From a virus: 38,026 nt of DNA. Numbering within the stretch: the stretch's first letter is position 1; each line of letters starts with the position of its first letter. Shown piece by piece: positions 10,327 through 37,975 of the stretch. Both the position numbers and the translations under genes were made by a program. The notes beneath the pieces are model-generated. The model worked only from the letters and a program-made list of their open reading frames with translations. It ran no database searches and was not told the DNA's origin. The stretch spans positions 1 to 38,026 of the IMG/VR virus record IMGVR_UViG_3300022931_000004; one strand, 5' to 3'.

Positions 10327-10966
10327 GAGGTGCTTATTATGGGACAGTACGCAAGAATACAAGACACTAGGTTATTTAGAACATGGGAATCTATAAACGG
10401 TAGATGCCATAACCCAAATTACTCAGGGTATTCCAAATACGGAGCTAAAGGTATTACTGTATGTCCCAATTGGAGAAACAACGCTAATGAATTTATGGCC
10501 TGGGCATTATTAAATGGATACACAGACAAATTAACTATTGAACGTAAAAATTTTACGTTTGGGTATACTCCTAAAAATTGCACTTGGATACCTGCAGAAT
10601 GCCAAGCAGGTAATCGAGGTATGACTGTTAAAAATACCTCAGGATATGTAGGAGTTAATTGGCATAAAAAAAAAGAAAAATGGTTTGCTAGAGTAACTAT
10701 TAAAAATAAACGAATTGAAATCGGTAAATTTGATGATGCATTAGAAGCTCATCAAGCCCGTAAACAATATTTTATTGATAATAACTTGCAGGAGCATTTG
10801 AGAATATATGAATTACAGCACCAGCACATCTAATACTCTGTTAGAGATTAATTCTTTAATTAAAAGAAATGAAATAAAAGATTGTGAACAATTTGAAACA
10901 CTAGTTAATACATTACCGTCTGAATTACAACAACAAGTTAAAGAAGCATTTGAATACCATCCTGGT
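10264..10966 (+). mobile_element. Insertion 1 in the DNA polymerase gene (HNH-AP2 cassette)
   Basis: About 703 bp separate two copies of CCTGGT (10258-10263 and 10961-10966), both encoding the Pro-Gly just before polymerase motif A. Deleting one copy with the intervening DNA gives CIVAPGWLFAGADFS in one frame, as expected of an uninterrupted PolA. The cassette carries an HNH-AP2 homing-type endonuclease gene and supplies the first 51 residues of polymerase piece 2. A group I intron core was not recognised, and the boundaries lack the usual exon-U and terminal-G arrangement, but a catalytic intron cannot be fully excluded. Confidence 0.65.
10339..10833 (+). CDS. HNH homing endonuclease with AP2 DNA-binding domain
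   Basis: The N-terminal part follows the HNH endonuclease pattern found in phage homing enzymes, with RCHNP, KYGAKGITVCPNW, a conserved acid-Arg pair (TIERK) and an NCTWIP segment. The C-terminal part (about residues 103-145) is an AP2-type DNA-binding domain (GYVGVNWHKKKEKWFARVTI). The gene sits inside the interrupted DNA polymerase gene and probably spreads that insertion by cutting empty alleles. ATG at 10339 is preferred over the in-frame GTG at 10330 because AGAGG lies 7-8 nt upstream. Its end overlaps polymerase piece 2 by 26 nt. Confidence 0.9.
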   Translation: MGQYARIQDTRLFRTWESINGRCHNPNYSGYSKYGAKGITVCPNWRNNANEFMAWALLNGYTDKLTIERKNFTFGYTPKNCTWIPAECQAGNRGMTVKNTSGYVGVNWHKKKEKWFARVTIKNKRIEIGKFDDALEAHQARKQYFIDNNLQEHLRIYELQHQHI

Positions 10967-11194
10967 TGGCTCTTTGCTGGTGCTGATTTTTCAGCTCTTG
11001 AGGAGCGTATTGGCGCTATTTTAAGTCAAGATCCTAATAGGATTAAAGTATATACAGATGGATATGATGGCCATTCTATGAGGGCTTACAAATATTTTGC
11101 TGATCAAATGCCAGATATTACTTCTGCACTAGCTAAAGCTAAAACAGCTACTAAATTCTGGATAAGTGATAAAGGAGAATATTGTTGTGAATAA
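10808..11194 (+). CDS. DNA polymerase family A, piece 2: palm motif A
   Basis: Only 128 residues long. It carries polymerase motif A in GADFSALEER, where D60 is the first metal-binding aspartate, then the fingers segment DGYDGHSMRAY. The first 51 residues come from insertion 1 and resemble no polymerase segment. The last few residues (CCE) come from insertion 2. It starts at ATG 10808, inside the end of the HNH gene, with AGGAG about 13 nt upstream. If translated separately, it must assemble with pieces 1 and 3. If the transcript is spliced, the ORF is an artefact of the insertions. Confidence 0.85.
   Translation: MNYSTSTSNTLLEINSLIKRNEIKDCEQFETLVNTLPSELQQQVKEAFEYHPGWLFAGADFSALEERIGAILSQDPNRIKVYTDGYDGHSMRAYKYFADQMPDITSALAKAKTATKFWISDKGEYCCE
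11171..11183 (+). repeat. Direct repeat, left copy, bounding insertion 2
   Basis: AAAGGAGAATATT here matches AAAGAAGAATATT at 11768-11780 in 12 of 13 positions. Both encode Lys-(Gly/Glu)-Glu-Tyr in the polymerase frame. The offset is 597 bp, a multiple of three, so collapsing the repeats gives KGEYLAGTINS in one frame. Confidence 0.75.
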
Positions 11195-11780
11195 TTTTAT
11201 ATCAGAACCTGCAGTAACTTATGAAATTAGATGTAAATTACTTGAATGGGCTAAAGAACAGTCAACTACTATTATTGCTTCAAGAATAGAAGCACAAGGA
11301 TATGATTATGTAAACCCAGCAGATACTATATTTCCAGGGGAATATGACAATATATTTATGTATGCCGATGCAGAATTAGTTTTTACTGATCCTGTTGATA
11401 TACAAACATTAAATTCTACATTTTCAAGTTTTGGAAAAATAAAAGCAAATTCTCCTGAATCTGAATTATCACAATTAATGTGTGATGTACCTGAAATAGC
11501 TGAAGTAGAAGTAACTAAACATAGTAAATCTGATGAATATTATTATGCTTATTTCACAAATTTAAATTCTTTTATTCAAATCTATCCAGCTAGATTATAT
11601 TTTGAACCTTATGGATTACCTGCAACTCTTAAAGTTAGTCAACTTTTAGAAGATAAACGTGATCTAGAAGGATTCAATTCAATAGATATCTATCGTAATT
11701 GGCTACCTCACGATAAACAAAATAGTATTTCATATCCTAAATAGAGGTATTTATGAATCTTATAACTAAAGAAGAATATT
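11184..11780 (+). mobile_element. Insertion 2 in the DNA polymerase gene
   Basis: A 597-bp segment lies between 12-of-13-matching direct repeats and splits polymerase motif A from motifs B and C. Nearly all of it (11187-11744) is one ORF that is not a recognisable endonuclease. Too little sequence lies outside the ORF for a normal group I intron core. Its base composition looks more AT-rich by eye than the polymerase sequence. It behaves like a second gene insertion that has been made tolerable by new start and stop signals around it. Confidence 0.6.
11187..11744 (+). CDS. Unknown ORF inserted in the DNA polymerase gene (185 aa)
   Basis: GTG at 11187 has AAAGGAG at good spacing, so I prefer it to the ATG at 11166, which lies inside polymerase piece 2. 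The product is acidic, soluble and rich in Tyr and Phe (MNNFISEPAVTYEIRCKLLE at the start). It has no HNH, GIY-YIG or LAGLIDADG motif that I can see. It occupies almost the whole of insertion 2. It could be a highly diverged homing endonuclease, a cargo gene or a polymerase-associated factor. The function is unknown. Confidence 0.7.
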   Translation: MNNFISEPAVTYEIRCKLLEWAKEQSTTIIASRIEAQGYDYVNPADTIFPGEYDNIFMYADAELVFTDPVDIQTLNSTFSSFGKIKANSPESELSQLMCDVPEIAEVEVTKHSKSDEYYYAYFTNLNSFIQIYPARLYFEPYGLPATLKVSQLLEDKRDLEGFNSIDIYRNWLPHDKQNSISYPK

Positions 11781-12460
11781 TAGCTGGAACAATTAATTCT
11801 ATCGCTACTAAATATTCAGAGCTTAGAACTAAATCTAAGCCTCCTACGTTTGCTCTTCAATACGACGGTACCTGGTTTACATTGCATAAACGAACAGGCT
11901 TTCCTAAAGAACAAGCTAAACAGATAGAGAAATCATTTCATGAACTCTACGCGGTCTCCGGGGAATTCAATAAGAAGAATAAAGAATTTATGGAGAAGCA
12001 TGGCTATATAGAATGTGCATTCGGACTAAAGCTAAGAACTCCGATTATTTCGCAGTGCGTAATGGGAAATTCTAAAACTCCCTATGAAGCTGAAAGCGAA
12101 GGACGTAGCGCTAATAACGCAGTAACTCAGTCATGGGGCATGTTGCTTAATCGAGCAATCATTGCTGCTAATAGACGTATTGAAGAAGCTGGGCATGGAA
12201 CTGCTATTCTTCCCTGTAACATGATTCATGATGCAGGATATTTCTTAGTAAAAGCAGAACCTCAGTATATTAAATTTTTAAATGATGTACTGATAGAGGA
12301 GATGGAATGGAACGATAATGATCTAATTAGATCTACAGATGTTCCTATGAAAGCTTCACTTGAAGTCGGTAAGTCTTGGGATAAATTAGTCCCATTACAT
12401 AACAATGCAACTCTTAAGGAAATTACAGATGTCTTTCCAATTCTCACAGGATCAGGTTGA
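11753..12460 (+). CDS. DNA polymerase family A, piece 3: fingers and palm motif C
   Basis: This is the C-terminal part of the interrupted PolA. Motif B follows R-x3-K-x7-Y (R25, K29, Y37), with PTFALQYDG in place of the usual YG ending. Motif C is MIHDAG, with catalytic D160 after H159. About 19 residues at the start, up to KEEY, correspond to the duplicated junction. AGAGG about 5-8 nt before the ATG allows separate translation. With pieces 1 and 2 it completes all the active-site elements, so the enzyme is probably functional either by assembly or by RNA splicing. It overlaps the helicase gene by 32 nt. Confidence 0.9.
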   Translation: MNLITKEEYLAGTINSIATKYSELRTKSKPPTFALQYDGTWFTLHKRTGFPKEQAKQIEKSFHELYAVSGEFNKKNKEFMEKHGYIECAFGLKLRTPIISQCVMGNSKTPYEAESEGRSANNAVTQSWGMLLNRAIIAANRRIEEAGHGTAILPCNMIHDAGYFLVKAEPQYIKFLNDVLIEEMEWNDNDLIRSTDVPMKASLEVGKSWDKLVPLHNNATLKEITDVFPILTGSG

Positions 12461-14737: not shown

Positions 14738-14810
14738 GCCCTTATAGCTCAGCTGGCAGAGCAAAGCTCTTGTAAAGCTTAGGTCGGTGGTTTGAACCCA
14801 TCTAAGGGCT
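14738..14810 (+). tRNA. tRNA-Thr (anticodon UGU)
   Basis: A complete cloverleaf is visible. The acceptor stem is GCCCTTA with TAAGGGC. The D-arm is GCTC/GAGC, and the anticodon stem is AAGCT/AGCTT around loop CTTGTAA. The T-arm is GGTGG/CCATC with loop TTTGAAC. The anticodon UGU reads ACA threonine codons, which are common in this AT-rich genome. CCA is not encoded and must be added by the host. The gene lies directly between the nuclease gene and a cluster of structured elements, so it may be released from a longer transcript by RNase P. Confidence 0.95.
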
Positions 14811-22502: not shown

Positions 22503-22673
22503 ATGTTCAAAAAATTCTGGTTAACGACTAAAAGTATTTTATGGGCAATAGGATTAATAGCGACAATTATTGCTGCTCTTATTATTATATTTTTAACTAT
22601 TCCAGTAGCAATTTTTGCCATATTAATTCTTGTTATATATTATGTGATTAAGTCATCAATAGAAGAGAATTAA
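22503..22673 (+). CDS. Small membrane protein with two hydrophobic segments (56 aa)
   Basis: The product starts MFKKFWLTTKS and is then almost entirely hydrophobic (ILWAIGLIATIIAALIIIF, then IPVAIFAILILVIYYVI), ending in a charged SSIEEN tail. Two transmembrane helices with a Thr-Ile-Pro turn are likely. Holins often look like this, but holin identity cannot be shown here. The ribosome site is weak. Its TAA (22671-22673) overlaps the stop codon of the opposing giant gene (22670-22672). Confidence 0.6.
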   Translation: MFKKFWLTTKSILWAIGLIATIIAALIIIFLTIPVAIFAILILVIYYVIKSSIEEN

Positions 22674-25600
22674 CCAAATATATCTTTTAGTGCTTCTAAT
22701 AAAGATACGTTATTGGCTTCATCAAGCAGATCATCGAACTGAAGCATATTAGGAGATATATCCCCGCTAAGCCATGCAGCATTTACATTACCTAAAGTAG
22801 GTATTCCAGTAAGACCTTGGATTGCAGCAGATAAACCTACTCCAGTAGGATTAGTTTGAGCTAACCTTCTAGCGGCTCTTTGATTACGCATGAAATAAGA
22901 AATAAATGAGGTAGCTCCGACTGCATCTATTGCTTCTAAAGCAGGTGTTAACGCCTCATCAAATAATACAAATGCATCTAATGATTCATGCATAGCTACT
23001 TCAAAGTCTTTATTTTCTACAGTAGTAAGATGTTCAATCATTACATATCTACCTAAGAAATCGGTAAGCTGTACCATTTGTCTAGCCAGTTGATATGGTG
23101 CACTGGTCTTAGTCATAAACATAATAGCAGCAGTTTCACTTACTGAATTAGGAACCCTATCAGCAAACTCTGAAAATGTTTTATCTACTTTAAGAGTACG
23201 TTTAATACGATTAAAAAATCCATCAATTTGAGCTTCGTTGACGTCTTCCACAATAAGTGAATTAAGTCCTGCTGCAGTCATTCTATGAATTTTATTATTC
23301 TCAATTCTTACTTTTAGTTGCTCAGCTTTTATAGCTTCTGGGCTATTAGCTCCTAATTGCTTAGACCCAATTCTATGTAATAGTGATGTACGTGCATCAG
23401 TATCTTTTCGGTATCTTTGGTATTCATGAAATCCTTCTAGTATTTTACGGATAGTAAAAGTTATAGGGATGTTTCGCATGCTTAATTGAGCAATGTTTGA
23501 AATCATATTACCAAAAACTACCTTAGGCATTGCTACAACAATACGGTCCTTACCGTAACCTACAATTTGCCTAAGTATATAATGAAAGATACCTACGTAT
23601 CTTTTAACTCTCCCCATTGACTCGCCTTGCAAAAACTTAAATTGACTAAAATCCCATACTTTATATCCAAATACTTTATCTACTATATCCTCCCTAACCA
23701 TAAATTTTCCATTTACAGCAAAAGACTTCATATAGTCACGTACTTCTTTTGGGAGTTTTCTAAATCGATCTACATAATTAGGATCATTTATAAAATCAAT
23801 AAATATATCTGGATGCGATTTATGCATATCGCTTTGTTCATGAACTAAAAGCTTTACTACTTCTAAATCATTATCAATTGTATTTTTACGATCAATATAC
23901 ACGGAATGCATATGAGCAAATACATTTTGTATTTCTAGATCTGGGCGTAGTAATTGTTTTTTAGTTTCATTACCCATCATTACGCGATAATCAACAATTT
24001 TATTTTGATCATCTCGAAGAGGACGAAGTTTTATTTTTTTATTTTCAATTAATACTTTACCTTCTGCTAATTGTGTTTGATGAAATGCTGCAACTTTTCT
24101 TTCTATTTTAAAAAAGTCAGGATTACCGTTGCTGTCCTGAAAACCCTTATGCTTAGCTAAGATTTCAGTTAGCGTGGTACCCATATTTCTCTGATTTGTA
24201 GTTGATACGACACCAGACGCATCAGGAACTTCAGGAGTGGTCCGGGTAATATATAAAGTATCATGAGCCTGAGGAATACCTAAAATCTCTCCCAATGAAT
24301 AAGCTTCAGTGTACCCTTCCTTACTCATTTGTTTTTCTTGTGTAGAGAAACCTGTTCTCATACTAGTAAAATTATCTACTCGTTCGATAATATATCCTTT
24401 AACCATTTGTGTAGGATTGCTCTTAAACAAATGTTCTAACGAATTGCGCTTAAATAGAAGATGGCTATCTATCATATCTACAATGCCATTATCTTTAGAA
24501 TTTGCTTCCATTTCGTTATTGGCTAAAGTTTTTACTTGTTCCAGTTTTCGAGGATCAGCATAATTTAATGCAGCTAACGAAGCATACGCATCTAATAATT
24601 GTACTTGCTCAGCAGTAGGATTATCAAGTTCACCAATAGCAAGACTATAAGCATTTTGGTATGCGCCATGTAATTTAGTATTGCCTGTGCTGATGTGATA
24701 CCCAAGTTCATCAGCGTATTTGATTGCTCTATGTGAACGTGCAATATTCAATTTAGTTAAGATAGCTGCCTGTTCTTTTAATATTGCTTGCCTACTTATT
24801 CTATCAGCGCCAATTAAACGTACAATGGCTCGAGAAGATAACCCTATAAGTTTTAAACTAGAAATATCTGCTCTAAGCAATACGTCAGTTAAAGCTTCTC
24901 TCATATCTACTGTCATACCATGCGGATCACTTGGTTTTACTGTTTTCCAAATACCATTAAACCAGTTAGTAGTAAATCTCTCTGCTTCTTGTCGAGCTTT
25001 AGAAATATTAACTTTAGCATGTAATAATCTATCAATCATTATTTTAGATAGAGAACCTCTACCTACTTCATTAGCTATAGATCTTAATGTTTTATTAAGA
25101 GTCAGAAACATATGTTGTCTTGCGTTATGAGCACTGGCAGAATCACTCATAGTGAGAGCACCTACACTGGCAAGATCGCTTACTACTTGTTTAAATATTC
25201 CCACAGACTCTAATTGAATTAATTTAAGTCCCTGTTCTTCAGCATAATTTCTAATTTTCTGATCAGTATCAGAGAGATGAGTGTATATTTTAGTAATCTC
25301 TTTTCGAAGAATGCTTTCATGTTTACTCTGAATAGCTATTAACTGTTCAGTTACTGCTATCATTTCTTCAAAAGAATTGGCTCGTCCTTGTCTCTTATGA
25401 AATTTACGATTAATAAGTGCTTTAAACTCATCAACAATAAGATCAACCAAATGCAATAATTTACCTAATAGCCCTTTATTTCGTACCGGTAATTTAATAT
25501 TAGTACCAGATAGATATTTAATAAGAGATTTATTAGTTACAGCGTAAGCTAAAAATTCATGTAATCTATTTGCTTCTTTTGTAGGATTATCGAAAAGATA

Positions 25601-28600
25601 ATTATACTGTCGCTTGGCTGCAATAACATCCTCTGCAGAAGGATTTGTAATGCCTTCCAGGAAGATTAAATGTCCTTTACTGACAGGACCTATTTCATGT
25701 AAAGTCTGGTTATATAGCTGTTCAACTCGTCTAGCAAGCAAAGGCTCGCTAGCTAATGCAGCAGCTACCATTGCATGCACCATTTCATGTGTATACACTT
25801 CCTGAGGTGACTGTCCATTAGCAGATACTGGAGGCTGCCGGCTAAGTGAGAGCCTTACAGCATCACGAGCTAAGTCGTAATTGCCCTGGGTAATTCCATC
25901 AATTTCTTCGACAGTTAAATTAATCTGGGTAGTTGCATCCATGCCTTTAGCTAGCATATTCATTATTCTATTTAATACTAGCGTATGGGCATTCATATCC
26001 TCTGTGGAGGCATAATAATTAGCAGAGAATTCAGCAAATGTATCGAATAAAGAAATAAGATTACTGCCATTAACGTCTTTATTCATAATCGTAACTTCAT
26101 TGTCTCTTTTCAGATTATCTAATGAAGCAAATTGATTTAAGCTATCTGGATCCGTAGTTGAATGTTCTTTTAGAAATTCTCTTTTTGCGGTATCAACGTC
26201 ATCTGCCATAAGAGCATTTCGGGCAAATCTCCAAATTGGAGTAACTCTATCTATATCTTTTCTAGTTTTTATGCCAGCAGTATCTATATTTGCTTCAGCT
26301 AATAGCGCTGAAAAATCATATGCCCATTCATAAGCTTTTTGTGCAGTTAAGTTTCTAACTACTACTACCCCGCTAGGTATATGAGTAACTTGAGATGTCT
26401 TTCCTTTTCCAAAAATATCTTTATTTTTACCAGAATCAGGCTGTCCTTTATGTACGGCAAAATTTCCTAAAATAATAGCAGGAACATCTTTACCGCCATG
26501 AAGAACAGAAGGAATTGTATCGGAATCTGTAGGCGTCACTATAATATCAATCGTCTCTGTCATCTTAGGACGCTTAGCTCGCTTAACGCTTATAACTACT
26601 TTCTTTTCGAGCTCTGTTTCTAAAGTAACTTTCTTCTTCTTTACTTTAGGTTTAGTATTCTTTTTAGCTTTTTTACTTTCTTTCCGAGCTAAGAATAGCT
26701 GATGATTAAATACTTTCCCGCCTGCTTTAGAAACTTCTTTCTGTCTTTCAGCTCTACCTTCGGTAACAATTGCTAGAGCTTCAGCAATATTTGCCCGAAA
26801 TGCATTAAGGTCCTGAATATCTTCAGTCTTTCTAGCAAATTGATTTTGATGTCCTTCAGTTATTAACCATGTATTCAGTGCCTGCATTAAAGCTCGATTA
26901 CCATTAGCTTTATCTTTAGCTTCAGTAATTTTAATTACTGTGTCTACTTGATCGCTAATAGTTTGCAGGATGCTATGATTTTTATGGAGCTCATTAAATA
27001 CATTTCCGTACTCATTGGACACATCTTCTAATATTGAAGGATTAGCCATAATTGCGTCATGTAGAGCTAGGGCATTTGGAAACTTGGCTAATACTTTAGT
27101 TAATATGGCTGAGTCCATATTAATGATTAATCTAATAAGTGCACTTACTCCAGGAGATACAAATACACTTTGTCGTGGAGACCCACCGACATCAGAAGGA
27201 GTACCTTTTTCATTTGTGAAAGCAAACTTACTTACTTCCTCATTACTAATAGCCTGTGATAGTGCCCGTTTAGTTAAGTCAACAAATGCTCGCTCTTCTT
27301 TTGTCATGAGCGGGCCTTTGTATTGCGGGAATACATCTAATAACTGTTCTTCAATAAGAGCGTCTATCTCTTTTTTAGATAATGAAGATCTCTTACCTAA
27401 TTTCTCTGCATAAGCTTTCTCGAAATGCACCATAAAGGCTGCATGTAGGATCTCCCCAGATTGAATTACAGCGTCTCTAGCCTGTTGGGTACCTCCAAGC
27501 ATGCCGGTTAATCCATGATGGAATCTAGGAGCCAGGACCTCTCCTACGTTAGTTATTAGAAAGCTGTCATTGAGATATTTAGTTTGGGAAGTACCTTTTA
27601 CTATACTCCGGACAAAATCATCTCTACTTTGGAATCGATCTGTTTTACCTTTATTAAATTTAAAAGCGCCAATAGTCTCTAAATGATCTGCAAGTTTTCT
27701 AATTTTTTTTATTTCAGCTACCAATAGAGGAGCCTTTTGTGCTTCAGTCAATGTCTTGTCTTCTACAAGATCCTGATACTTGATATTCAAAGCACTTAAT
27801 TGCTGGTATATCTCTCCTACTATCAGTTTGGCAACACCTTCAGAGATGCTCTTAATGCCTCCTCCGTACATGAATATGAGAAACGGATACTTGACCAAGT
27901 CCCTAGAGTTTTCATCCCTTAATTGCTTATATATAGCTTTTAGAGCAGTATCTTTATTCTTATAAGCATCTTCATTAAAAAACTGATTTCTCTTTCTAGC
28001 GTATTCTGCAGCAATATCTGCATCTTCTCCTTCGATTACTTTTTCTACGAGAGTATGATAGATATCAAGAGCATCAGTATTGTGATGAATCTCATCTCCT
28101 TCTTTGCCTTTATATATCCCTACCTGATTTTGTACCTGTTCATTGAATTCTTCGCCGTATAGATTAGGAAATTGTCCTACGTTCTGAGCAAATCCATTAG
28201 AGATGCCATCAATTTCAAGCAGAGTATCTGAGCTAAAAGACTCACTTACTTCAGTAGGAGGTTTCCCATCAGGCATATAATTAGTTAATGCCACCAGCGC
28301 AGCAAATATAGAAATATCTCCGCCAAACTTATTCTGAATTTTAGGCAGTAATGTTTTTAATTTTTTGTCTTTCTTAGGATTCTTTCCTAAGTTAGCTAAA
28401 ATAATTACTGCCCTCTGTACATGCGGGTCATTTACTATGGTATCGAATTCAGCTTCAGAGGCAGCTAAATTTTGTTTATCTATTTTAACTCCAAGATGAG
28501 AAGCGACAGATTGCTTAAATAGATGAATATTATCTTTTGTGTAAACAGTAACTTTGTCATCTGATCTAAGTAATTGTCTAGTTACTTTGCTTTGTTGCGG

Positions 28601-31600
28601 GTTAATATTACCGTCCATCAAAATACGATGCTGATTTTGTAAACGATAAGTAAAAAAGAATTTCTCTAATTTATTATTTTCTGGCTTATTAGCTTCGAGT
28701 ACTTCATCCAAAGCAATTGTCTTATTAGCATTTGATGCGGAATCAGATAATTTAACGGCTTCGTGAGCACGTTTATGTATTTTAACTACGCCGGCCAAGG
28801 TGTCAATGACAGCACGTAAACCTGGGATCTCTGCAACAAGAGACAACATGTCCATAGCTTGTGCTTTAGTCCAGGCATTATTATGCATCCCTGTAAGTGT
28901 TTCTGTAACTTCTTCCGGTACTTTACCGTTTGAATTCCTAACCTCGGTAACAATATTTTTGCTAGGTTTTTGTAAAGGAAATTTATTATGGGACTGAATA
29001 CCAAATGCCTCTTCAGTTTCCTTTAAGGCAGCTGCTTCTTTATCTGAAAATTCAAATGGAGTTTCTTTATGCTCTTTTGTTCCGTCTTCGCTTATTGTAG
29101 TGACTCTAGGTGTATGAATCTGAATGTGTTTATATTCTGTGGCGTCTCTGAGCCCTACAGTCTTTGATCGGTAATTCAGTTCAGCACGAAGTATAGCCAT
29201 GTCTGCCATTATTGCTTTAAGGGCAGTTTTATCTTTTGATAATTTATTACGTAATTGCTGCATTACTGCTTGTAGCGAAGCAACCGTGGGATACGTTGTT
29301 TGGCTATGATATTTTAAATTCTTAGGTTTTGTAACATCCTTATTTAATTCATCTGCTATTTCTTGAGTTATCTTGCTATTGAATTTACGATCTGCATTAT
29401 AAGGAACTTGTTTAAAATTCCAGATATGGGACGCTACATGATAGCGAGAATCTGGTAATTTGGATCTTTCTTCAAAAGTTAATTTATTAAGTTTAGTGCT
29501 GGGACCGTGCTCTATTTGTATAGCTGCTAGTCCTAAAGCAATCTCTAAATGATCGAAGTAACCTGAGGTCTCTACATCGACCGAAGTTATCTTCAGTAAA
29601 GCAGCAATGCTTTTACCTGTAGATTCTGCCGTGTTGTTATACCCGGAGCCTACTTCATCAAGTTGCTCACTCTCTTCTCCGGTTAAATCAGTGTATGTAT
29701 TATATAAAAATTCTGATTTAGCAAAGCCACTTCTAAACGCTATATTAGTAGGATTCCTACTAATCATCTGCATTGAGCCTATAGCCATTGCAAATATGAT
29801 TTGTGGAGGTAATCCTTCTTCTCCTCGGTGGAGTAAAGATAGTGGCTTTCTAGCAGCAGGAATTCCGGTAGAGAAGGTTTCAGTAAGTTTAATGTCCTGA
29901 TACTTTTTAGCGAACCTATTATATTCGATGGTCATCTGAACAGCTGCAGGTCTACTTAAGCCTAATGTGATTAAGGCTCTTTGTAGCATTGCGTCACTTT
30001 TAAAGACAACATCAGGAAGAGCAAATATGCCAGTAGCTTCTTTGCCTTTCTTATTTACACGCACCTGAACTAGTTCAGCGAACTTCTTACTTAAAATACC
30101 TAAGGCGCTATCTCCGCTATCTGCTTTTAGTTCTTCTAATGTTGGAGCTTTTTCGCCCTTCTTTTGAGCTGCACGTTTTCTACCCGGGAGGGCTTTAGTT
30201 TTATTCTCAGTTAATTGCTCATCGGTAATAACAATAGGCAATGTATCTTTAGTTACTTCAATAAAGTTCTTGGTATCACCGAGATCTTTAAGTGCATCTA
30301 ATAACGCTGGGAAATCTTTTTTCCTATTCTTAATTACATCCAGATCAAATAAGCTGGCCAATTGATTTAGTATTAATCCAAATTGTTTTCTCTGCGGTCC
30401 AGTTAAATTAGCCTGCTCTTTTATTTTTAGTTTCCCATTTCTGGTAATGACTTCTGGGAATACCAGATACAGAGCTTGTTTGCTTAGCTCTTCAATAGGT
30501 ATAAATCGATCGGTTACATCGGAAGGAGCTAGATCATCTATTTCTTCTATTTCCGCAGTCTGCTCCCTGTTAGCATCTGCCTCTAAAAACTCTTTAGGTG
30601 TTTGCTCTTCTGCACTCTCACCAGCAAATTCATTTTCGAAATCACCAAAGTTACCTTCGGCACCAAATATTGCATCAAGATCGACGTCTTCAAAACTTTC
30701 ATTAGAAGGAATAATTACATCAGCAATTAGTATTAGGTCAGAGCTAGCTTCTAGTATCTGAGTTAATAAAGTATGCTGATGTTCTGGGATATTGAGAACA
30801 ATACGTACGACACTAACAAACTGTGACCATAAAGATGAAGGCTTATTCTTCGGTGTTTCACCATATTCATACTGGGGAGGAAGTTTCTTTAGGATATTTT
30901 GATAAAGTTTATTCGTCAATCCATATGTAATAAATTCTTCTGGAGTTTGATTTACTAATTTTTCTAAAATATTAATTTCTTTTTTTGTTAATTTTCCGCC
31001 AAATGCCCGTTCAGGATCTCTACCGCCATGTTCTATAGCATCAAATTCAACACGCAATAAACTATTTATTTTGTGTAACTCTTTAACAGCTGCTTTTTGT
31101 GCTTTAGTTATGGGGTTTGTAAAAGTATTCCGCACAGCTACATGAATAAGTTCATGTAATAATACTTCTTCTGTAGTAAGCACTTTATTATCTAAAGCAT
31201 TAGCATAAATGACAATACCAATAAATTCTGTAACAGACGTACTTGTGCCAGTAGGTTCTATATCTCTTTGTACTTCCACTCCATCTACAGTAACTATAGT
31301 AGATCCAAGTGCACTATCAGGTCTTTTTTCGCTAAATCTAACTTCTAGTTTACCAACTGTACCTAATAGTTGTTTTGCTACCCCTTTAAATTCTGGATTA
31401 ACTGCATTATCGATTAACCACTGTAAAGCTACGTCTGTAGTTTTAAATCCTTTTAGTAGCGTTTTAGTAAGTTTATTGGTTGAAGGAGCTTGTCTAGATG
31501 CTTGTAATCGCTCTAGGGCAGCAACTATTTTAACTGTATCTCCACCATCGGCAAAATCTTCAGTAATACCAAAATCATCATTTTCTTCTCGCTCTAAATC

Positions 31601-34600
31601 TTCTGCTGCTTGTTCTTCGGCAGTTAACGGGGTAGGCTTCGCTTCAGCTAAAGCTTCTGCTGCAAATACAGGATCATCCAGTAATCGTTGAATATCTTCT
31701 GGAGAATATCCATTCTCAGGATCTGCTAAAGCAAATGATTCATCTTTAGTAAATTCAAATGTTTTAGGAATTGTCTGTTTAGTAGAATCAACAACAGTTA
31801 ATTCTGTAATTAGTGCACCCGTATTAGTTCCTTCAAGTTTTACATAAGTAAAACCGTCTGGAGTTAGCGGGTAAATCTTTAATACAGTAGTAGGTTCTTT
31901 AAATTGATCTACACCCCGTAAAGTCCATTGAACTTTATCTCCTACTTTAATTGGAGAATCTGATGGAACCTTTTTCTTTTTGGTTGGAGCTGCTTGGGGC
32001 TTTCCTCGTTCATTATTCCTGTTTTGTCCAGAACGTTTAGGAGGAACCGTAGTAGACGAAGTTTCTTTCCCAGATCCTGGAGCTTGTCCCGTAGTTCCTG
32101 TTTTTGATTTTTTAGCATTTTCTTCTTCCTTAAGATCTAATTCAGTTTCTACATCTTTATCAATTAAAGCAGTTAATGCATCATTCGCTTCTTTTAATTC
32201 AGCTGCTTTTGCAGTGTGTGCTTTTGTACCTGATTTAAGTTTAGCTAATTGTGCTTTTAATTGATCTGTCTTTACTACTATAAATCGTATACTTTCTGGA
32301 GAAGCTAACCCTTTTTCTTGACCTTCTTGTAAATACTCTAATTGTATTTTTGCTGCTTCAAGATTTAATTTAGCCTGAGCAATACGTTCAGCTGCTGTAT
32401 GTTCGCTATTAGCTTTAATTGTTTCAGGGTTAGCTAATATTTTTTCTAATCTTTTAATTTGTTCTTGAAGTTTTTCTATGTCAAATATATCAAATGCTCG
32501 TTTAACTCCAGGTGAATTGGAATGAAAGACATCAGATTTAGTTGTTTTATCGCTGCCCTGTGTCGGCTCTGGCTGCGCCGACGCCTCCACCGGGTCAGCT
32601 TTGGGAGAGGTTTTGCCTTCTGGATTCTTTAACTTATTTATATCTTTTTGAGTAGCAGGGTCAGCTACTGTTTTAATATTGCCTTCTATAGACTTTGCTT
32701 TTGCTAATTGTGCAGCAGCATTAGCTTTATCTCTTTTGAGTTGCTGAGCATTTTTATGAAAAGAAGTAGTCTTATGCCCTTTTACTACTTGGGTTGTTAA
32801 CTGTCCATAAGAGGCTTCTTTAGTAACTACAGTAATTAAGGTATTAGACTTTTTATGAATAATAGTAGTAAATGGTGCTTTCTTGTTTTTCTCAGTAACG
32901 TATTTATCATCTCCCTTAGGAATTTCATAACGTACAGCCCGTTCGCCTCGAGCCTTTTTATCACTCCGACTAACTACACGGATCGAACGTCCTTGGGGAT
33001 CTGCAAGAGCTAGCTTATGTGCTTCAGCAAATTTATCTGCTTTATTTTGTAGATTATCTGCATGCACTTTCAATCGTTGCTCAAGGACTGTAATCTTTTG
33101 CTGAGCTAATTGGTAATGCATGTCGCTATTAATAATATCTAATATCTCGTCTTGATAGCTCTTTATGCCTCTCCATCTCTGAGATGTGCCCTCTTCTACT
33201 TCGTCATGAACTTCTGCCATGGTTTTATCAACAGACTTTGTATCTAACTGCTCTTCTATTTTGAGAGCATCTAATTGAGCTTGTAGAAGTACCCTATCAT
33301 GATCATTTTTAGCAGTATCAATAGCTGTTTGAATTTCAGCAATAGTTGGGCCTATGCTGCCAAAGAAACTTACTTTATCTACAACATCTAATACTGTTCC
33401 AACTTTATCTGTTAATTTTTTAATTAGTTTATTATTGCTAATAACCAATGCTGCTTTTTGAGAAGCAGACAATACGCGTTTACTTACTTTAGTTAAACTC
33501 TCTATAGTTTTTTGAGTAGTAGATTTATTAGCGTCTTTGATAATAGTGTTGAATTCATCATCTTCAATCTCAGTATTTTCTTTACTAGGTTTAATAGTTT
33601 CTTTAGCGTCTTTTAAATCCTTTGTTATGGTCTTGTCAGAAAAGTCACCTTTCTCAAGAAGACCTTCTAAAAAAACTTTGGTATCTTCTAATTCCTTAAT
33701 ATGATCTACAGTTTCGTCACCAGAAAGAGGAGTATCTAGTTTTTCTGTTACTTCTTTTTTATGAGCTTCTAATGCAGCAATTTCTTTTCGAAGTTGTTTT
33801 CTAGTTTCAACATTAGCTTCCTCATTACTGCTTAATGGATTGGCTTCTTTATATGCCATGTACATTCCATTAAATATTGCGTTTTCAGTATCAGCCTTTT
33901 CTTTATCAAAATTTCCATCAATATCAATATTTGCTGCCGCAAGAGTTACTTCTATCTCTGCTAATTTTTTAATGTATTTGTCGCCTTCTTCTGTATTACC
34001 AAATTTTATAGTTTCTTGTCCTGCTAAAATTGCCTTAATACCTGCAATCTCTTTCTCTATTGATTCTTTAATTTTGGTTTTACTGGAAGGACTGATAGCA
34101 GCATCAGCTAATCTTTCGGTTAGTTTAATACTTGCATGTACACCGGTGAGACCAGCAACGATAGTGGCAACTCCTCCAGGAGTACCAGCAGCTTCTGCCA
34201 GAGCATCGTATGTGATAGCTGCAGTATCTGTGATCTCACCTTCAGCAGCTAATTGTTCGGTAGCAGAGGTAATACCTCCAGATAATCCTTCACCGGCAAG
34301 TCCTCTTGCTGGTCGAAGTACAGTTAAGCTAAGAATACTGGGTGGGGTGACTTCTTTGACAGTCTTCTGAACTTGCTTAATCCAAGCCAGTCGACCCGGG
34401 ATAGCTTTAACAGCTGCCATATCACCGTATTTCTCAGCAACAGTACCAACAGCTGACCATAATTTAATACGAGTAGCTTCTTTCTCAGTAGGCCTGCGAC
34501 CGTTCTTTTCGGTGAATTCTTCAATGGCCTGATTACCCTTACCAATAGCTAAAGAGGTAAGAATAGCTGTCTGGGCTACAGGTCCTCCTATGGTGAATGC

Positions 34601-35296
34601 CACCATGTAGGGAACACTGTCTATGCCCTGTGAGATAAGAGTACCTAGATCGTTAAATAAAGCATTCTTAGTAGCTTCCCAATTACCACTATTTTTAGCA
34701 ATCGTGGTGAAAGCTGTATGGGCAGCTACTTGTTCTTTACGATTAACTGGAACTTTAGTTTTAAGGTTCGCAGAGAAGTCTTTAATTGCTTTAAGATTTT
34801 CAGGATCTGTAGTAAACGCTGAGGCAGCTTGTGCTCCCAGATCGATAGTGGTCTGAACAATAGCATTTGCTTTGGTACCTAAGAAATCTGTAGGGGCTCC
34901 TGCTTTTACAGCTCTGGCATTTTCTTGATTATATCCAGCAAATTCTCGGGCATTTAATTCAGTTAACCCGGGAATGAATACACCTTCAGCAGTGGTTACT
35001 GAATAGGTGCCGTCTTCATGTAAAGATATAGGCCCTTCTTGAGATACAATTGGGGAATTGGCTTTAAGACTGGTAGCCTCTTCACCAACTTCTTTAAATA
35101 TCTCTGTACTACCAGGAGTAACTTCTCTGAATAGATCAGTATCGACATCTTGCGCAGTTTGTCTGAACAAATCTGCATCAGCAAGCTGAGAAGATGGTAA
35201 AAAGGAATTTTTAGCATCAGCAACAAGCGTAGCTGTTTCAGCTTTTTTTGATAATACTTGATCTCGAACAGCTAAAAGACGTTCATCAAAATTCAT
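22670..35296 (-). CDS. Giant virion RNA polymerase (N4 vRNAP-like) with two zincin-like domains
   Basis: A 4208-residue protein, predicted to be carried in the virion, enter the cell with the DNA and transcribe early genes. A single-subunit RNAP core is visible. QNQHR (R2224) followed by GNINPQQSK corresponds to DxxGR. Motif A is LLEIDGISNG (D2363). Motif B has R2465-x3-K2469-x7-Y2477-G. Motif C is LALHDAIM (D2747). These spacings resemble the N4 mini-vRNAP residues I recall (R424, D559, K670, Y678, D951). Zinc motifs HELIH (1381-1385, with E1454) and HEMVH (3170-3174, with E3247) flank the core. Around 228-255 and 330-385 are Ala/Gly-rich hydrophobic stretches. Charged helical linkers fill about 400-1100, and a probable SH3-like segment lies near 1115-1170. 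The C-terminus (about 4000-4180) resembles domains of phage polyvalent proteins. The ATG overlaps the previous stop. Confidence 0.87.
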   Translation of the reverse strand: MNFDERLLAVRDQVLSKKAETATLVADAKNSFLPSSQLADADLFRQTAQDVDTDLFREVTPGSTEIFKEVGEEATSLKANSPIVSQEGPISLHEDGTYSVTTAEGVFIPGLTELNAREFAGYNQENARAVKAGAPTDFLGTKANAIVQTTIDLGAQAASAFTTDPENLKAIKDFSANLKTKVPVNRKEQVAAHTAFTTIAKNSGNWEATKNALFNDLGTLISQGIDSVPYMVAFTIGGPVAQTAILTSLAIGKGNQAIEEFTEKNGRRPTEKEATRIKLWSAVGTVAEKYGDMAAVKAIPGRLAWIKQVQKTVKEVTPPSILSLTVLRPARGLAGEGLSGGITSATEQLAAEGEITDTAAITYDALAEAAGTPGGVATIVAGLTGVHASIKLTERLADAAISPSSKTKIKESIEKEIAGIKAILAGQETIKFGNTEEGDKYIKKLAEIEVTLAAANIDIDGNFDKEKADTENAIFNGMYMAYKEANPLSSNEEANVETRKQLRKEIAALEAHKKEVTEKLDTPLSGDETVDHIKELEDTKVFLEGLLEKGDFSDKTITKDLKDAKETIKPSKENTEIEDDEFNTIIKDANKSTTQKTIESLTKVSKRVLSASQKAALVISNNKLIKKLTDKVGTVLDVVDKVSFFGSIGPTIAEIQTAIDTAKNDHDRVLLQAQLDALKIEEQLDTKSVDKTMAEVHDEVEEGTSQRWRGIKSYQDEILDIINSDMHYQLAQQKITVLEQRLKVHADNLQNKADKFAEAHKLALADPQGRSIRVVSRSDKKARGERAVRYEIPKGDDKYVTEKNKKAPFTTIIHKKSNTLITVVTKEASYGQLTTQVVKGHKTTSFHKNAQQLKRDKANAAAQLAKAKSIEGNIKTVADPATQKDINKLKNPEGKTSPKADPVEASAQPEPTQGSDKTTKSDVFHSNSPGVKRAFDIFDIEKLQEQIKRLEKILANPETIKANSEHTAAERIAQAKLNLEAAKIQLEYLQEGQEKGLASPESIRFIVVKTDQLKAQLAKLKSGTKAHTAKAAELKEANDALTALIDKDVETELDLKEEENAKKSKTGTTGQAPGSGKETSSTTVPPKRSGQNRNNERGKPQAAPTKKKKVPSDSPIKVGDKVQWTLRGVDQFKEPTTVLKIYPLTPDGFTYVKLEGTNTGALITELTVVDSTKQTIPKTFEFTKDESFALADPENGYSPEDIQRLLDDPVFAAEALAEAKPTPLTAEEQAAEDLEREENDDFGITEDFADGGDTVKIVAALERLQASRQAPSTNKLTKTLLKGFKTTDVALQWLIDNAVNPEFKGVAKQLLGTVGKLEVRFSEKRPDSALGSTIVTVDGVEVQRDIEPTGTSTSVTEFIGIVIYANALDNKVLTTEEVLLHELIHVAVRNTFTNPITKAQKAAVKELHKINSLLRVEFDAIEHGGRDPERAFGGKLTKKEINILEKLVNQTPEEFITYGLTNKLYQNILKKLPPQYEYGETPKNKPSSLWSQFVSVVRIVLNIPEHQHTLLTQILEASSDLILIADVIIPSNESFEDVDLDAIFGAEGNFGDFENEFAGESAEEQTPKEFLEADANREQTAEIEEIDDLAPSDVTDRFIPIEELSKQALYLVFPEVITRNGKLKIKEQANLTGPQRKQFGLILNQLASLFDLDVIKNRKKDFPALLDALKDLGDTKNFIEVTKDTLPIVITDEQLTENKTKALPGRKRAAQKKGEKAPTLEELKADSGDSALGILSKKFAELVQVRVNKKGKEATGIFALPDVVFKSDAMLQRALITLGLSRPAAVQMTIEYNRFAKKYQDIKLTETFSTGIPAARKPLSLLHRGEEGLPPQIIFAMAIGSMQMISRNPTNIAFRSGFAKSEFLYNTYTDLTGEESEQLDEVGSGYNNTAESTGKSIAALLKITSVDVETSGYFDHLEIALGLAAIQIEHGPSTKLNKLTFEERSKLPDSRYHVASHIWNFKQVPYNADRKFNSKITQEIADELNKDVTKPKNLKYHSQTTYPTVASLQAVMQQLRNKLSKDKTALKAIMADMAILRAELNYRSKTVGLRDATEYKHIQIHTPRVTTISEDGTKEHKETPFEFSDKEAAALKETEEAFGIQSHNKFPLQKPSKNIVTEVRNSNGKVPEEVTETLTGMHNNAWTKAQAMDMLSLVAEIPGLRAVIDTLAGVVKIHKRAHEAVKLSDSASNANKTIALDEVLEANKPENNKLEKFFFTYRLQNQHRILMDGNINPQQSKVTRQLLRSDDKVTVYTKDNIHLFKQSVASHLGVKIDKQNLAASEAEFDTIVNDPHVQRAVIILANLGKNPKKDKKLKTLLPKIQNKFGGDISIFAALVALTNYMPDGKPPTEVSESFSSDTLLEIDGISNGFAQNVGQFPNLYGEEFNEQVQNQVGIYKGKEGDEIHHNTDALDIYHTLVEKVIEGEDADIAAEYARKRNQFFNEDAYKNKDTALKAIYKQLRDENSRDLVKYPFLIFMYGGGIKSISEGVAKLIVGEIYQQLSALNIKYQDLVEDKTLTEAQKAPLLVAEIKKIRKLADHLETIGAFKFNKGKTDRFQSRDDFVRSIVKGTSQTKYLNDSFLITNVGEVLAPRFHHGLTGMLGGTQQARDAVIQSGEILHAAFMVHFEKAYAEKLGKRSSLSKKEIDALIEEQLLDVFPQYKGPLMTKEERAFVDLTKRALSQAISNEEVSKFAFTNEKGTPSDVGGSPRQSVFVSPGVSALIRLIINMDSAILTKVLAKFPNALALHDAIMANPSILEDVSNEYGNVFNELHKNHSILQTISDQVDTVIKITEAKDKANGNRALMQALNTWLITEGHQNQFARKTEDIQDLNAFRANIAEALAIVTEGRAERQKEVSKAGGKVFNHQLFLARKESKKAKKNTKPKVKKKKVTLETELEKKVVISVKRAKRPKMTETIDIIVTPTDSDTIPSVLHGGKDVPAIILGNFAVHKGQPDSGKNKDIFGKGKTSQVTHIPSGVVVVRNLTAQKAYEWAYDFSALLAEANIDTAGIKTRKDIDRVTPIWRFARNALMADDVDTAKREFLKEHSTTDPDSLNQFASLDNLKRDNEVTIMNKDVNGSNLISLFDTFAEFSANYYASTEDMNAHTLVLNRIMNMLAKGMDATTQINLTVEEIDGITQGNYDLARDAVRLSLSRQPPVSANGQSPQEVYTHEMVHAMVAAALASEPLLARRVEQLYNQTLHEIGPVSKGHLIFLEGITNPSAEDVIAAKRQYNYLFDNPTKEANRLHEFLAYAVTNKSLIKYLSGTNIKLPVRNKGLLGKLLHLVDLIVDEFKALINRKFHKRQGRANSFEEMIAVTEQLIAIQSKHESILRKEITKIYTHLSDTDQKIRNYAEEQGLKLIQLESVGIFKQVVSDLASVGALTMSDSASAHNARQHMFLTLNKTLRSIANEVGRGSLSKIMIDRLLHAKVNISKARQEAERFTTNWFNGIWKTVKPSDPHGMTVDMREALTDVLLRADISSLKLIGLSSRAIVRLIGADRISRQAILKEQAAILTKLNIARSHRAIKYADELGYHISTGNTKLHGAYQNAYSLAIGELDNPTAEQVQLLDAYASLAALNYADPRKLEQVKTLANNEMEANSKDNGIVDMIDSHLLFKRNSLEHLFKSNPTQMVKGYIIERVDNFTSMRTGFSTQEKQMSKEGYTEAYSLGEILGIPQAHDTLYITRTTPEVPDASGVVSTTNQRNMGTTLTEILAKHKGFQDSNGNPDFFKIERKVAAFHQTQLAEGKVLIENKKIKLRPLRDDQNKIVDYRVMMGNETKKQLLRPDLEIQNVFAHMHSVYIDRKNTIDNDLEVVKLLVHEQSDMHKSHPDIFIDFINDPNYVDRFRKLPKEVRDYMKSFAVNGKFMVREDIVDKVFGYKVWDFSQFKFLQGESMGRVKRYVGIFHYILRQIVGYGKDRIVVAMPKVVFGNMISNIAQLSMRNIPITFTIRKILEGFHEYQRYRKDTDARTSLLHRIGSKQLGANSPEAIKAEQLKVRIENNKIHRMTAAGLNSLIVEDVNEAQIDGFFNRIKRTLKVDKTFSEFADRVPNSVSETAAIMFMTKTSAPYQLARQMVQLTDFLGRYVMIEHLTTVENKDFEVAMHESLDAFVLFDEALTPALEAIDAVGATSFISYFMRNQRAARRLAQTNPTGVGLSAAIQGLTGIPTLGNVNAAWLSGDISPNMLQFDDLLDEANNVSLLEALKDIFG
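32562..32582. repeat. GC-rich inverted repeat inside the giant gene
   Basis: GTCGGC (32562-32567) and GCCGAC (32577-32582) form a perfect 6-bp stem with a 9-nt loop. It lies within a conspicuously GC-rich patch of about 70 bp in an AT-rich gene. The patch encodes a low-complexity Pro/Ala/Glu/Ser linker. It may be a small foreign insertion or simply a linker of different codon choice. Confidence 0.45.
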
Positions 35297-37365
35297 TATT
35301 TCCCAAATCCAAAGAATTTTTTAACATCATTAACTCGGTTATATCGTTTTAATTGTATAGCGTCCTTAGGATCATTAGGATCTAGAGCAGCAATTGCTGC
35401 TTCTAATTTAGCTACTGCTTCTGGATCAGGACTTAATGCATTTTTAAGATTTTGTTCATATTTTTTTAAATTAGCTTTCTTTTTAGCTCTGTATTCTTCT
35501 TTTGTTAATCCCTTCGGAGTTACTTTTTCAGCACTTTTCTCTAGCTGACTTTTCTTCTTATTAGCTTCAGCAGTTGCAGCATCTATTGCAGCAATTGCAT
35601 CTCCTAAATCTGTCTTTTTACCAAAACTTCTTTGTATAACTTGAAATAATGCAGGAATTTCTCGATCAGAAATATCTGTTTCTTTATCGTCAGCTAATGA
35701 AAAATCATTATGATTATAAGGAATATAATCCTGATTAAAATTAGCTTTTGCATACAAATCTAATACACCTAAATTTAATTGTTCTTGTCCTTCAAGTGAT
35801 AATCCAGGTAGTGCCTTGCGTAGTTTTATAAACGTATTAGAAATGCTGTTTCGCAATGCTCGAATATTTTCTTTATCCCAATCAACATCTTTCAACCGAG
35901 TCTGTACACGATCATAAATACTGGCTTCAGGATCACGATTTAGTGTTTCAATATCTTCTTGGTTTAAATCATATTTCTTTGCAACTGTTTCTCTAGATCT
36001 GGCTTCTAATTTATTTTTAAGTTCAAGTGCTTGAGTAACTCGACGAAATTTTATTTTCGCAGGATTATTATCATTGATAGCTTTATCAGCAATTGTTTCT
36101 AATTGAGATTCAGTCATCCAATGAAATTTACTTGGTTGTCCTAAATTTCCAACAATTCCATCGCGCAATTGTTTATATAAGTCAAATGTGTATGCGTTTT
36201 CCTTAAGTGTAGAAGTAGATTCGCCAGTAAGACGCTCTAACCTAGCATCAATATCAGTAGAATATCGATCTACTAATCTATCTTCGATAGGTTTAAGTAA
36301 TGCTTTGTTTTCTTCAGACATTCTTCCGTCAATAGCGCCCTGTCTTAAGACATCATATGCGGCAATATCGTTATCTAAATTACCACTAGGCTGAAAAGCA
36401 GCTATGCTATCTTGAACAGCTATTTTATCTGTTCGATCTTTACGCACATTTTCTTCTCTTGCCTGATCGTTTGCTAATTTGAGAGCTTTATAAGCAACGT
36501 TATTATCGTATTCATCGTTTATACGTTTAGTCTCTAAATTTTTTTGAGCGTTATCAATTTTGTCCTGCTCATCTTTAGTTTGAGCTCGCTTTCTTGCATC
36601 ACTTAAAGCCTGAGATTCTTGTTCAAAGATACGTTGCTTATTTATAGCATCTTGCTTCAGAGCTTCGTGCTCTTCTCGTTTATATTTAAGGCCTCGTTTA
36701 TCTGAGATTGATTGATATTTAGCAGATTTAGTTTTGTACTGTTCTCCTTCTACTTTGAGTGGATTTATTTTTTCAGCTAAATCTATATCTTGTAATTGAC
36801 CAAACGTATCTAAACTGTTTTTGGTAATTTCTTGACCTTGTTTAATTAATGCTCCAGGACGGAGAGCTTCAAGATGTGCTGCTTCTTTTTTACTGGCATC
36901 TAATGACTGTATTGCTTGATCTAAAGAAACAGGATTGATTTCTTTGCTGTGCCGTAATGCTTCTTTAGTGGTATCGAGAGTTACTGCGTCTTGTAGGATA
37001 TCTCGTTCGTCTGCTGTTACAGCTCGACCCTCAGCTGCTACTGCACGGCCTTCGGCCGATACTCTAAAATCTTGATTTTGAGCATCAACAAATCCTTTGC
37101 TAATATCATCGAGATCTAAAAACGATTGATCGCTATTAGCTAACAGAGCTTTCCGTGCTTCATCAGTTTTTAACTGAGCGGCTTGTACTTGGAATTTATC
37201 TGTAGCGTTAGTAACATAATCTTCTAATGCCTCTTCGCCGGTATTAACCATACCGCCAAGACTGGCAATAATATCTTTATTGGTATTGCGTATGTTATTT
37301 AAAATACCTGAACTATCAGCCGCTCTTATTTGGTGAGCTCTCTGGTAATCAATCACTTTAGCCAT
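35296..37365 (-). CDS. Probable internal virion / ejection protein (T7 gp15-like position)
   Basis: A 689-residue, highly charged and almost wholly helical protein with long coiled-coil-like stretches, no signal peptide and no catalytic motif. A short tandem repeat (AEGRAVAAEGRAVTADE) lies near 105-121. It sits between a 198-aa and a 4208-aa gene. The size order 198-689-4208 parallels the T7 internal core genes 14, 15 and 16 (about 196, 747 and 1318 aa). A function as an ejection or core protein is inferred from that order and composition. AGAGG before the ATG supports the start, and its stop overlaps the giant gene's ATG. Confidence 0.7.
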   Translation of the reverse strand: MAKVIDYQRAHQIRAADSSGILNNIRNTNKDIIASLGGMVNTGEEALEDYVTNATDKFQVQAAQLKTDEARKALLANSDQSFLDLDDISKGFVDAQNQDFRVSAEGRAVAAEGRAVTADERDILQDAVTLDTTKEALRHSKEINPVSLDQAIQSLDASKKEAAHLEALRPGALIKQGQEITKNSLDTFGQLQDIDLAEKINPLKVEGEQYKTKSAKYQSISDKRGLKYKREEHEALKQDAINKQRIFEQESQALSDARKRAQTKDEQDKIDNAQKNLETKRINDEYDNNVAYKALKLANDQAREENVRKDRTDKIAVQDSIAAFQPSGNLDNDIAAYDVLRQGAIDGRMSEENKALLKPIEDRLVDRYSTDIDARLERLTGESTSTLKENAYTFDLYKQLRDGIVGNLGQPSKFHWMTESQLETIADKAINDNNPAKIKFRRVTQALELKNKLEARSRETVAKKYDLNQEDIETLNRDPEASIYDRVQTRLKDVDWDKENIRALRNSISNTFIKLRKALPGLSLEGQEQLNLGVLDLYAKANFNQDYIPYNHNDFSLADDKETDISDREIPALFQVIQRSFGKKTDLGDAIAAIDAATAEANKKKSQLEKSAEKVTPKGLTKEEYRAKKKANLKKYEQNLKNALSPDPEAVAKLEAAIAALDPNDPKDAIQLKRYNRVNDVKKFFGFGK

Positions 37366-37378
37366 GATACGCCTCTAC

Positions 37379-37975
37379 TTAAATGGTTTCATTGAGCACA
37401 TACCCACCTGCTCGCTTACCAATAGATTTAAAGTTATTATCTGCAAGAATTTGATTATTGATCAATCGTTTCTGAACTCTTTGATCTTCTGCCCGGGCTG
37501 CTATATTAGAAGTATTTACAGCTCGATTATCTTCGAGCGCTTGTTTATTAAGAGCAAGCTGATCTTTTTGCAGAGATAGCCCATAGGCATCTTTAAGAAA
37601 ATCTAACCCTTTTAGACCTAAACCAAGATTATCGAAATTAAAAAAGGAACTGTCATCACTAAGACCAGTAAAATTGCCCCTATTACTAAAATTACTATTA
37701 ACTAGTTCGCCTTGCCCTTTTGGTCCGAATTGAAAATCATCACCAAGTTTAAATGACTTAAACTGATCAGTAACACTGCTTAGTTTAGGAGTATCACCTG
37801 GCACAGAATAGCCTTTAAGTCTTCTTATCTTTTCCTGCAAATCTGGACCAGTATTTGGTGTTTGAAAGGGCAAAGCAGACTGCCCAAGATCTCTATTATG
37901 CCCATTGTATGGAGCAATTATTCCATTTCGACTATTGTTATTTGGAAATTTGCTTTCGTATCCAGTATGTGGCAT
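37379..37975 (-). CDS. Probable small internal virion protein (T7 gp14-like position)
   Basis: A 198-residue protein with a Gly/Asn/Pro-rich, poorly ordered first half. The C-terminal half is helical, with LSLQKDQLALNKQALEDN, a pattern common in podoviral internal or ejection proteins. GAGG before the ATG supports the start. It lies 13 nt upstream of the 689-aa gene and is the first of three minus-strand genes seen here. The transcript must begin to the right of the window. Identity is inferred from position and composition. Confidence 0.65.
   Translation of the reverse strand: MPHTGYESKFPNNNSRNGIIAPYNGHNRDLGQSALPFQTPNTGPDLQEKIRRLKGYSVPGDTPKLSSVTDQFKSFKLGDDFQFGPKGQGELVNSNFSNRGNFTGLSDDSSFFNFDNLGLGLKGLDFLKDAYGLSLQKDQLALNKQALEDNRAVNTSNIAARAEDQRVQKRLINNQILADNNFKSIGKRAGGYVLNETI

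Follow-up and report, generated by a model that had tools for sequence, protein, structure and literature searches.

The locus and its domains

The stretch of DNA analysed here, called the window in what follows, is the 38,026-bp linear viral record IMGVR_UViG_3300022931_000004, and our subject is one gene in it, an open reading frame (ORF) of 4208 residues at 22670-35296 on the minus strand, which starts with ATG and has no internal stops. The same ORF, differing by one residue, is encoded on a 74,681-bp contig, IMGVR_UViG_3300024327_000003, which contains the window at 99.98% identity. We conclude with high confidence that the product is the virion RNA polymerase (vRNAP), equivalent to gp50 of Escherichia phage N4, of an uncultured Schitoviridae-type phage: because its core is of the N4 type by both sequence and structure and its gene order is as in N4, it is a Schitoviridae-type vRNAP. 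The features of the gene are the following.

22670-35296, minus: vRNAP gene, N4 gp50 equivalent, 4208 residues (phrog_2206 'virion RNA polymerase', E 5.4e-176)
32672-35296, minus: N-terminal region, residues 1-875, kept across the uncultured clade, no known domain (phmmer)
31499-32671, minus: variable insert site 1, residues 876-1266 (comparison with relatives)
30731-31498, minus: N-terminal HExxH metallopeptidase-like domain, residues 1267-1522 (motif conservation)
31142-31156, minus: HELIH motif of that domain, residues 1381-1385
26582-29959, minus: RNA polymerase core, residues 1780-2905, N4 mini-vRNAP equivalent (PDB profile match, hhalign, AlphaFold2 and Foldseek)
28625-28627, minus: R2224, N4 R424 (this and the next four from the alignment of the lineage with N4 gp50)
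28208-28210, minus: D2363, motif A catalytic Asp, N4 D559
27890-27892, minus: K2469, motif B Lys, N4 K670
27866-27868, minus: Y2477, motif B Tyr, N4 Y678
27056-27058, minus: D2747, motif C catalytic Asp, N4 D951
26132-26680, minus: variable insert site 2, residues 2873-3055 (comparison with relatives)
22673-26131, minus: C-terminal domain, residues 3056-4208, metallopeptidase-like C1 and C2 (PDB profile match)
25775-25789, minus: HEMVH motif of C1, residues 3170-3174

The C-terminal half of the protein is matched in 403 phage records, the best among the matches listed being N4-like. A Pfam scan of the whole ORF gave no match above cut-off, blastn with the gene part 22670-24900 gave none among phage records, and a scan of genome contigs found no host or prophage relatives.

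The RNA polymerase core

A preliminary description of this DNA had proposed that the 4208-residue protein contains a full single-subunit RNA polymerase (RNAP) core, and ORF, profile, structure and gene order now agree on this. R2224, D2363, Y2477 and D2747 lie where that description placed them, spaced by 139, 114 and 270 residues, and all correspond to N4 catalytic residues; the N4 spacings that it had given, 135, 119 and 273, are identical to those read from N4 gp50 (EF056009). Together with K2469, they give the window core the full N4 catalytic set R424/D559/K670/Y678/D951 (mini-vRNAP numbering). A loose four-element spacing pattern, which was composed after both sequences had been seen, matches the window protein once, at residue 2224, N4 once, at the equivalent residue, and none of 20,000 shuffled versions of the window protein.

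A core profile of 24 lineage members, compared with the PDB, matched N4 mini-vRNAP (2PO4, E 1.3e-17) and no other polymerase, and profile-profile comparison (hhalign) of the core with nine isolate vRNAPs gave a probability of 100 and an E value of 5.9e-51. Structure prediction, which the preliminary description had named as the test on which its proposal could fail, brought residues 1780-2905 closest to N4 mini-vRNAP: the best PDB match in Foldseek of the AlphaFold2 model (predicted local distance difference test, pLDDT, 80.6; predicted template modelling score, pTM, 0.77) was 3C3L, with an E value of 8.9e-21 and a template modelling (TM) score of ~0.64. Mitochondrial RNAP (E 1.3e-11) and T7 RNAP (E 3.3e-10) followed at lower rank, and these significant matches, with the palm-fingers fold that is common to all of them, might suggest a T7-type or mitochondrial-type RNAP that was fused to ejection domains outside the N4 lineage. 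We consider this extremely unlikely, as the N4 mini-vRNAP match is better by about nine to ten orders of magnitude, N4 is the sole polymerase in the profile search, Pfam RNA_pol has no match to the ORF, and both residue spacing and gene order are N4-like.

One could also imagine that the RNAP domain has decayed to a remnant and that the protein serves ejection only, like T7 gp16; N4-type promoter hairpins were not found (see below), and there is another single-subunit RNAP gene in the genome (1969-3711). However, N4 too has a second phage RNAP, and an alignment of 24 lineage members shows no variation at R2224, D2363, K2469 and D2747 and almost none at Y2477. Since these members are diverse (~26-37% identity), the invariance of the Arg, the Lys and both Asp argues for selection for catalysis, and we hold a remnant to be very improbable. 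As judged from sequence and model, the core is a complete N4-type single-subunit RNAP with its catalytic residues intact.

Downstream of the core, a PDB profile search with the C-terminal third finds the N4 vRNAP structure 11fw (E 3.7e-17), and the C-terminal domain is 48% identical in relatives. The HExxH domain C1 and the helical C2 that are expected of N4-type vRNAPs are both present, and at the sequence level this domain is homologous to that of N4 vRNAP.

Gene neighbourhood and promoters

On the 74,681-bp contig, which is near-complete, the genes run in the order terminase, tail fibre, portal, tape measure, major head protein, gp55- to gp53-position genes, gp52, gp51 and vRNAP. The vRNAP operon converges, as in N4, on genes for resolvase, single-stranded DNA-binding protein (SSB), a Sak4-like protein, primase, exonuclease and DNA polymerase. 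The Schitoviridae hallmark set of vRNAP, portal, major head protein, terminase, N4-type DNA polymerase and primase is present, in a check that left out the terminase small subunit. The two genes directly upstream of the vRNAP gene encode candidate ejection proteins.

35296-37365, minus: candidate ejection protein at the gp51 position, 689 residues (position and size only)
37379-37975, minus: candidate ejection protein at the gp52 position, 198 residues (position; weak similarity)

The preliminary description had seen here a series resembling T7 core genes 14-15-16, which corresponds to N4 gp52-gp51-gp50. Position and size agree with this; similarity is weak for the gp52-position protein, which finds phrog_2646 (E 0.005) and, by phmmer, N4 gp52, and is absent for gp51. 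The likeness to T7 gp16 is functional only, in that gp16 is the largest of three ejection proteins, with gp14 and gp15 (PMC12633501); it is not a polymerase, and no sequence relation to the window vRNAP is claimed.

Some observations weigh against the identification as an N4-type vRNAP. The protein is only ~20% identical to that of N4, sequence comparison detects no likeness between N4 gp51 and the protein at its position here, and a scan of the early region of the 74.7-kb contig, whose end may not be the genome end, yielded no promoter hairpin of the N4 type. Transcription by N4-type vRNAPs begins at short promoter hairpins close to the left genome end, and the hairpin scan recovered, in N4 as the control, hairpins at positions 90, 557 and 4546, which we take to be known early promoters. 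Direct repeats in the early region offered nothing informative on promoters. The promoter hairpins may be unseen because the contig end is incomplete, or the promoters may differ.

The N-terminal region and the insert sites

The closest known system is N4 gp50 (EF056009, AAO24831; PDB 2PO4, 3C3L, 9PNQ/R/T, 11FW), with which the window protein has in common the RNAP core, the catalytic residues at near-identical spacing, the C-terminal HExxH domain C1 and C2, and a gene that follows gp52 and gp51 and is convergent with the SSB-primase side. Apart from the low identity and the hairpin, which was not detected in the window's lineage, the two differ in length (3500 residues in N4 against 4208, which is the excess of about 700 residues given in the preliminary description) and in that the window protein has a second HExxH domain, on the N-terminal side of the RNAP, and inserts at two sites. 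The enzyme type itself is already known; unusual here are its size and its added modules, as the extension is mostly N-terminal and includes an HExxH domain that N4 lacks. This second domain and the variable enzymes fused in the lineage, which are the less ordinary part of the system, were missed in the preliminary description.

Residues 1-875 match 25 ORF entries of relatives, among them overlapping copies of one contig, with E values from 3e-17 to 2e-183 (phmmer). When the window protein is compared with a 4808-residue relative (L089, in G004), conserved blocks are broken by the variable stretches 876-1266 and 2873-3055, and neither of the window's two inserts matches a Pfam family above cut-off or resembles the inserts of relatives. 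Each insert site lies before an HExxH domain in the window protein and several relatives; here the HELIH domain comes after site 1 and the C-terminal HEMVH domain after site 2.

The evidence for the N-terminal HExxH domain is the conservation of its motif, because the AlphaFold2 model of residues 1130-1600 was poor (pLDDT 57) and Foldseek gave no useful match with it. The HExxH and a candidate third ligand, the E within 'EEFITYGLT', are invariant in seven lineage members, and profile comparison of the N-terminal with the C-terminal HExxH region gave a weak link (E 4.6e-4, probability 33%). The domain was not seen in the nine isolate vRNAPs compared or in many clade members, and is therefore not universal. 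As the window is a metagenomic contig, its extra length and second HExxH domain could be thought a chimeric assembly artefact, but the same ORF occurs on another contig at 99.98% identity, and the domain stands at the same place in six other contigs (L042, L044, L046, L084, L089 and L094; 32-37% identity), so that we give this explanation almost no credence. A solved internal virion protein, PDB 9sfn_G, shows a weak likeness to window residues 1366-1521 (E 0.047), which is a hint that this domain type may occur in other podovirus ejection proteins.

An uncultured clade with fused enzymes

A search of viral contigs gave 53 loci, of which 40, the window included, were long enough to be placed in a tree made by a quick method and with long branches; these form one clade apart from the nine isolates (Shimodaira-Hasegawa-like approximate likelihood ratio test, SH-aLRT, 100). 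The clade that holds the window's vRNAP is undescribed. Marine Schitoviridae isolates (Vibrio phages JA-1, pVa5, 1.238.A and D456; Alteromonas phage PT15-A5) share family, synteny and the C-terminal domain with the window's phage, but their vRNAPs have 3022-3646 residues, are without the N-terminal HExxH domain and fall outside the clade (SH-aLRT 100). The 20 ORFs in the clade that were taken as complete have 3448-5963 residues (median 4463), eight of these being open-frame lengths that may slightly exceed the lengths from the start codon; reference vRNAPs range from 2842 to 3820 residues (PMC10654107).

Several members carry recognisable enzymes at the insert sites. At site 2, four loci (L043, L050, L053 and L070) have a superfamily 1 (SF1) helicase (AAA_30/AAA_19 and UvrD_C_2) in one ORF with the upstream RNAP, and a fifth has such a helicase on a contig that begins within it, so that the link to the RNAP is not seen (L066, in G012). 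At site 1, an SF1 helicase is found in L084, on a 75.5-kb contig. The helicase-fused vRNAPs L043, L050, L053, L070 and L084 have open frames of 4255-5963 residues, and the fused helicases mostly have intact Walker A (GRGGTGKT), Walker B and later motifs. L089 has at site 1 a DUF7831 domain (residues 1337-1445) and an AlkB-like 2-oxoglutarate-Fe(II) oxygenase (residues 1768-1906, E 5.7e-13), and L043 likewise has DUF7831, at site 2. In a 4366-residue vRNAP of the lineage (L040) there is an SLT transglycosylase match near the N-terminus, at residues 148-198.

The idea that the fused helicase is a recent duplicate of the phage's Dda-like helicase was rejected, as fused and stand-alone copies group separately; identity between them is roughly 20-30% in most pairs, and G021 and G012 have both. 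Among isolates, coverage of a query made of the helicase and the C-terminal domain does not exceed 61% in any record. The open-licence literature searched, a partial library, makes no mention of a vRNAP that carries an SF1 helicase or an AlkB-like enzyme, and novelty is unproven. Polyvalent proteins with zincin-like metallopeptidase (MPTase) domains are reported to carry cargo that includes ADP-ribosyltransferase (ART), lysozyme and PBECR, and the parts consulted of the account by Iyer et al. 2017 (PMC5512222) mention neither of these two enzymes, SF1 helicase and AlkB-like oxygenase, as cargo of a vRNAP.

Proposed function

In N4, the vRNAP is ejected with the DNA and then carries out early transcription (PMC4496689), and for N4 and phage DEV it is established that one chain is both polymerase and ejected protein (PMC12633501). 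By analogy, a few copies of the window's vRNAP would be packaged and would leave through the tail together with the gp51- and gp52-like proteins; in the newly entered host cell the ejected enzyme would transcribe early genes. The combination of the two roles, which the preliminary description had suggested, is likely for the window protein; since the N4 and DEV chains are already dual, it is a known state and not a new one.

Comparison within the family points to a polyvalent injected protein, in which the N-terminal region, the RNAP, the HExxH domain and C2 would form a fixed backbone with two variable insert sites. The HExxH domains after these sites might, hypothetically, serve for autoproteolytic release of cargo or as a structural hinge. 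We speculate, and regard it as a possible but rather doubtful model, that the vRNAP of this clade is an injected multi-enzyme built of modules and up to ~6000 residues long, with SF1 helicase, AlkB-like oxygenase and DUF7831 exchangeable at two sites beside metallopeptidase-like domains, and that the helicase, where carried, may open the entering DNA for the polymerase or draw it in; the window would have the two-site layout with inserts that are unrecognised. N4 exposes its promoter hairpins through gyrase supercoiling and host SSB (PMC4496689), and such a helicase might partly replace this gyrase- and SSB-dependent extrusion. A helicase joined to an injected polymerase suggests another way of starting transcription on entering DNA. 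Moreover, the channel through which vRNAPs are believed to be threaded is ~35 angstroms wide (PMC12633501), and chains of 4200-6000 residues make this problem larger. With a second metallopeptidase-like domain by a variable site, cutting of the chain by such domains becomes directly testable.

Other features of the window

The second single-subunit RNAP of the window genome is a 580-residue ORF at 1969-3711 on the plus strand. Its residues 124-264 align to the N4 RNAPII subunit gp15 and residues 270-580 to gp16, two subunits that appear, on this alignment, to be joined in one chain here; relatives lie on 11 other contigs (64-72% identity). The DNA polymerase gene (8620-12460, plus strand) is in three pieces, 8620-10326, 10808-11194 and 11753-12460, which are separated by an HNH endonuclease ORF and a 192-residue ORF of unknown type, and no group I intron was found in the split gene at the Rfam threshold. 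The sole Rfam match in the window is a tRNA-Thr (TGT) gene at 14738-14810 on the plus strand, in the replication region.
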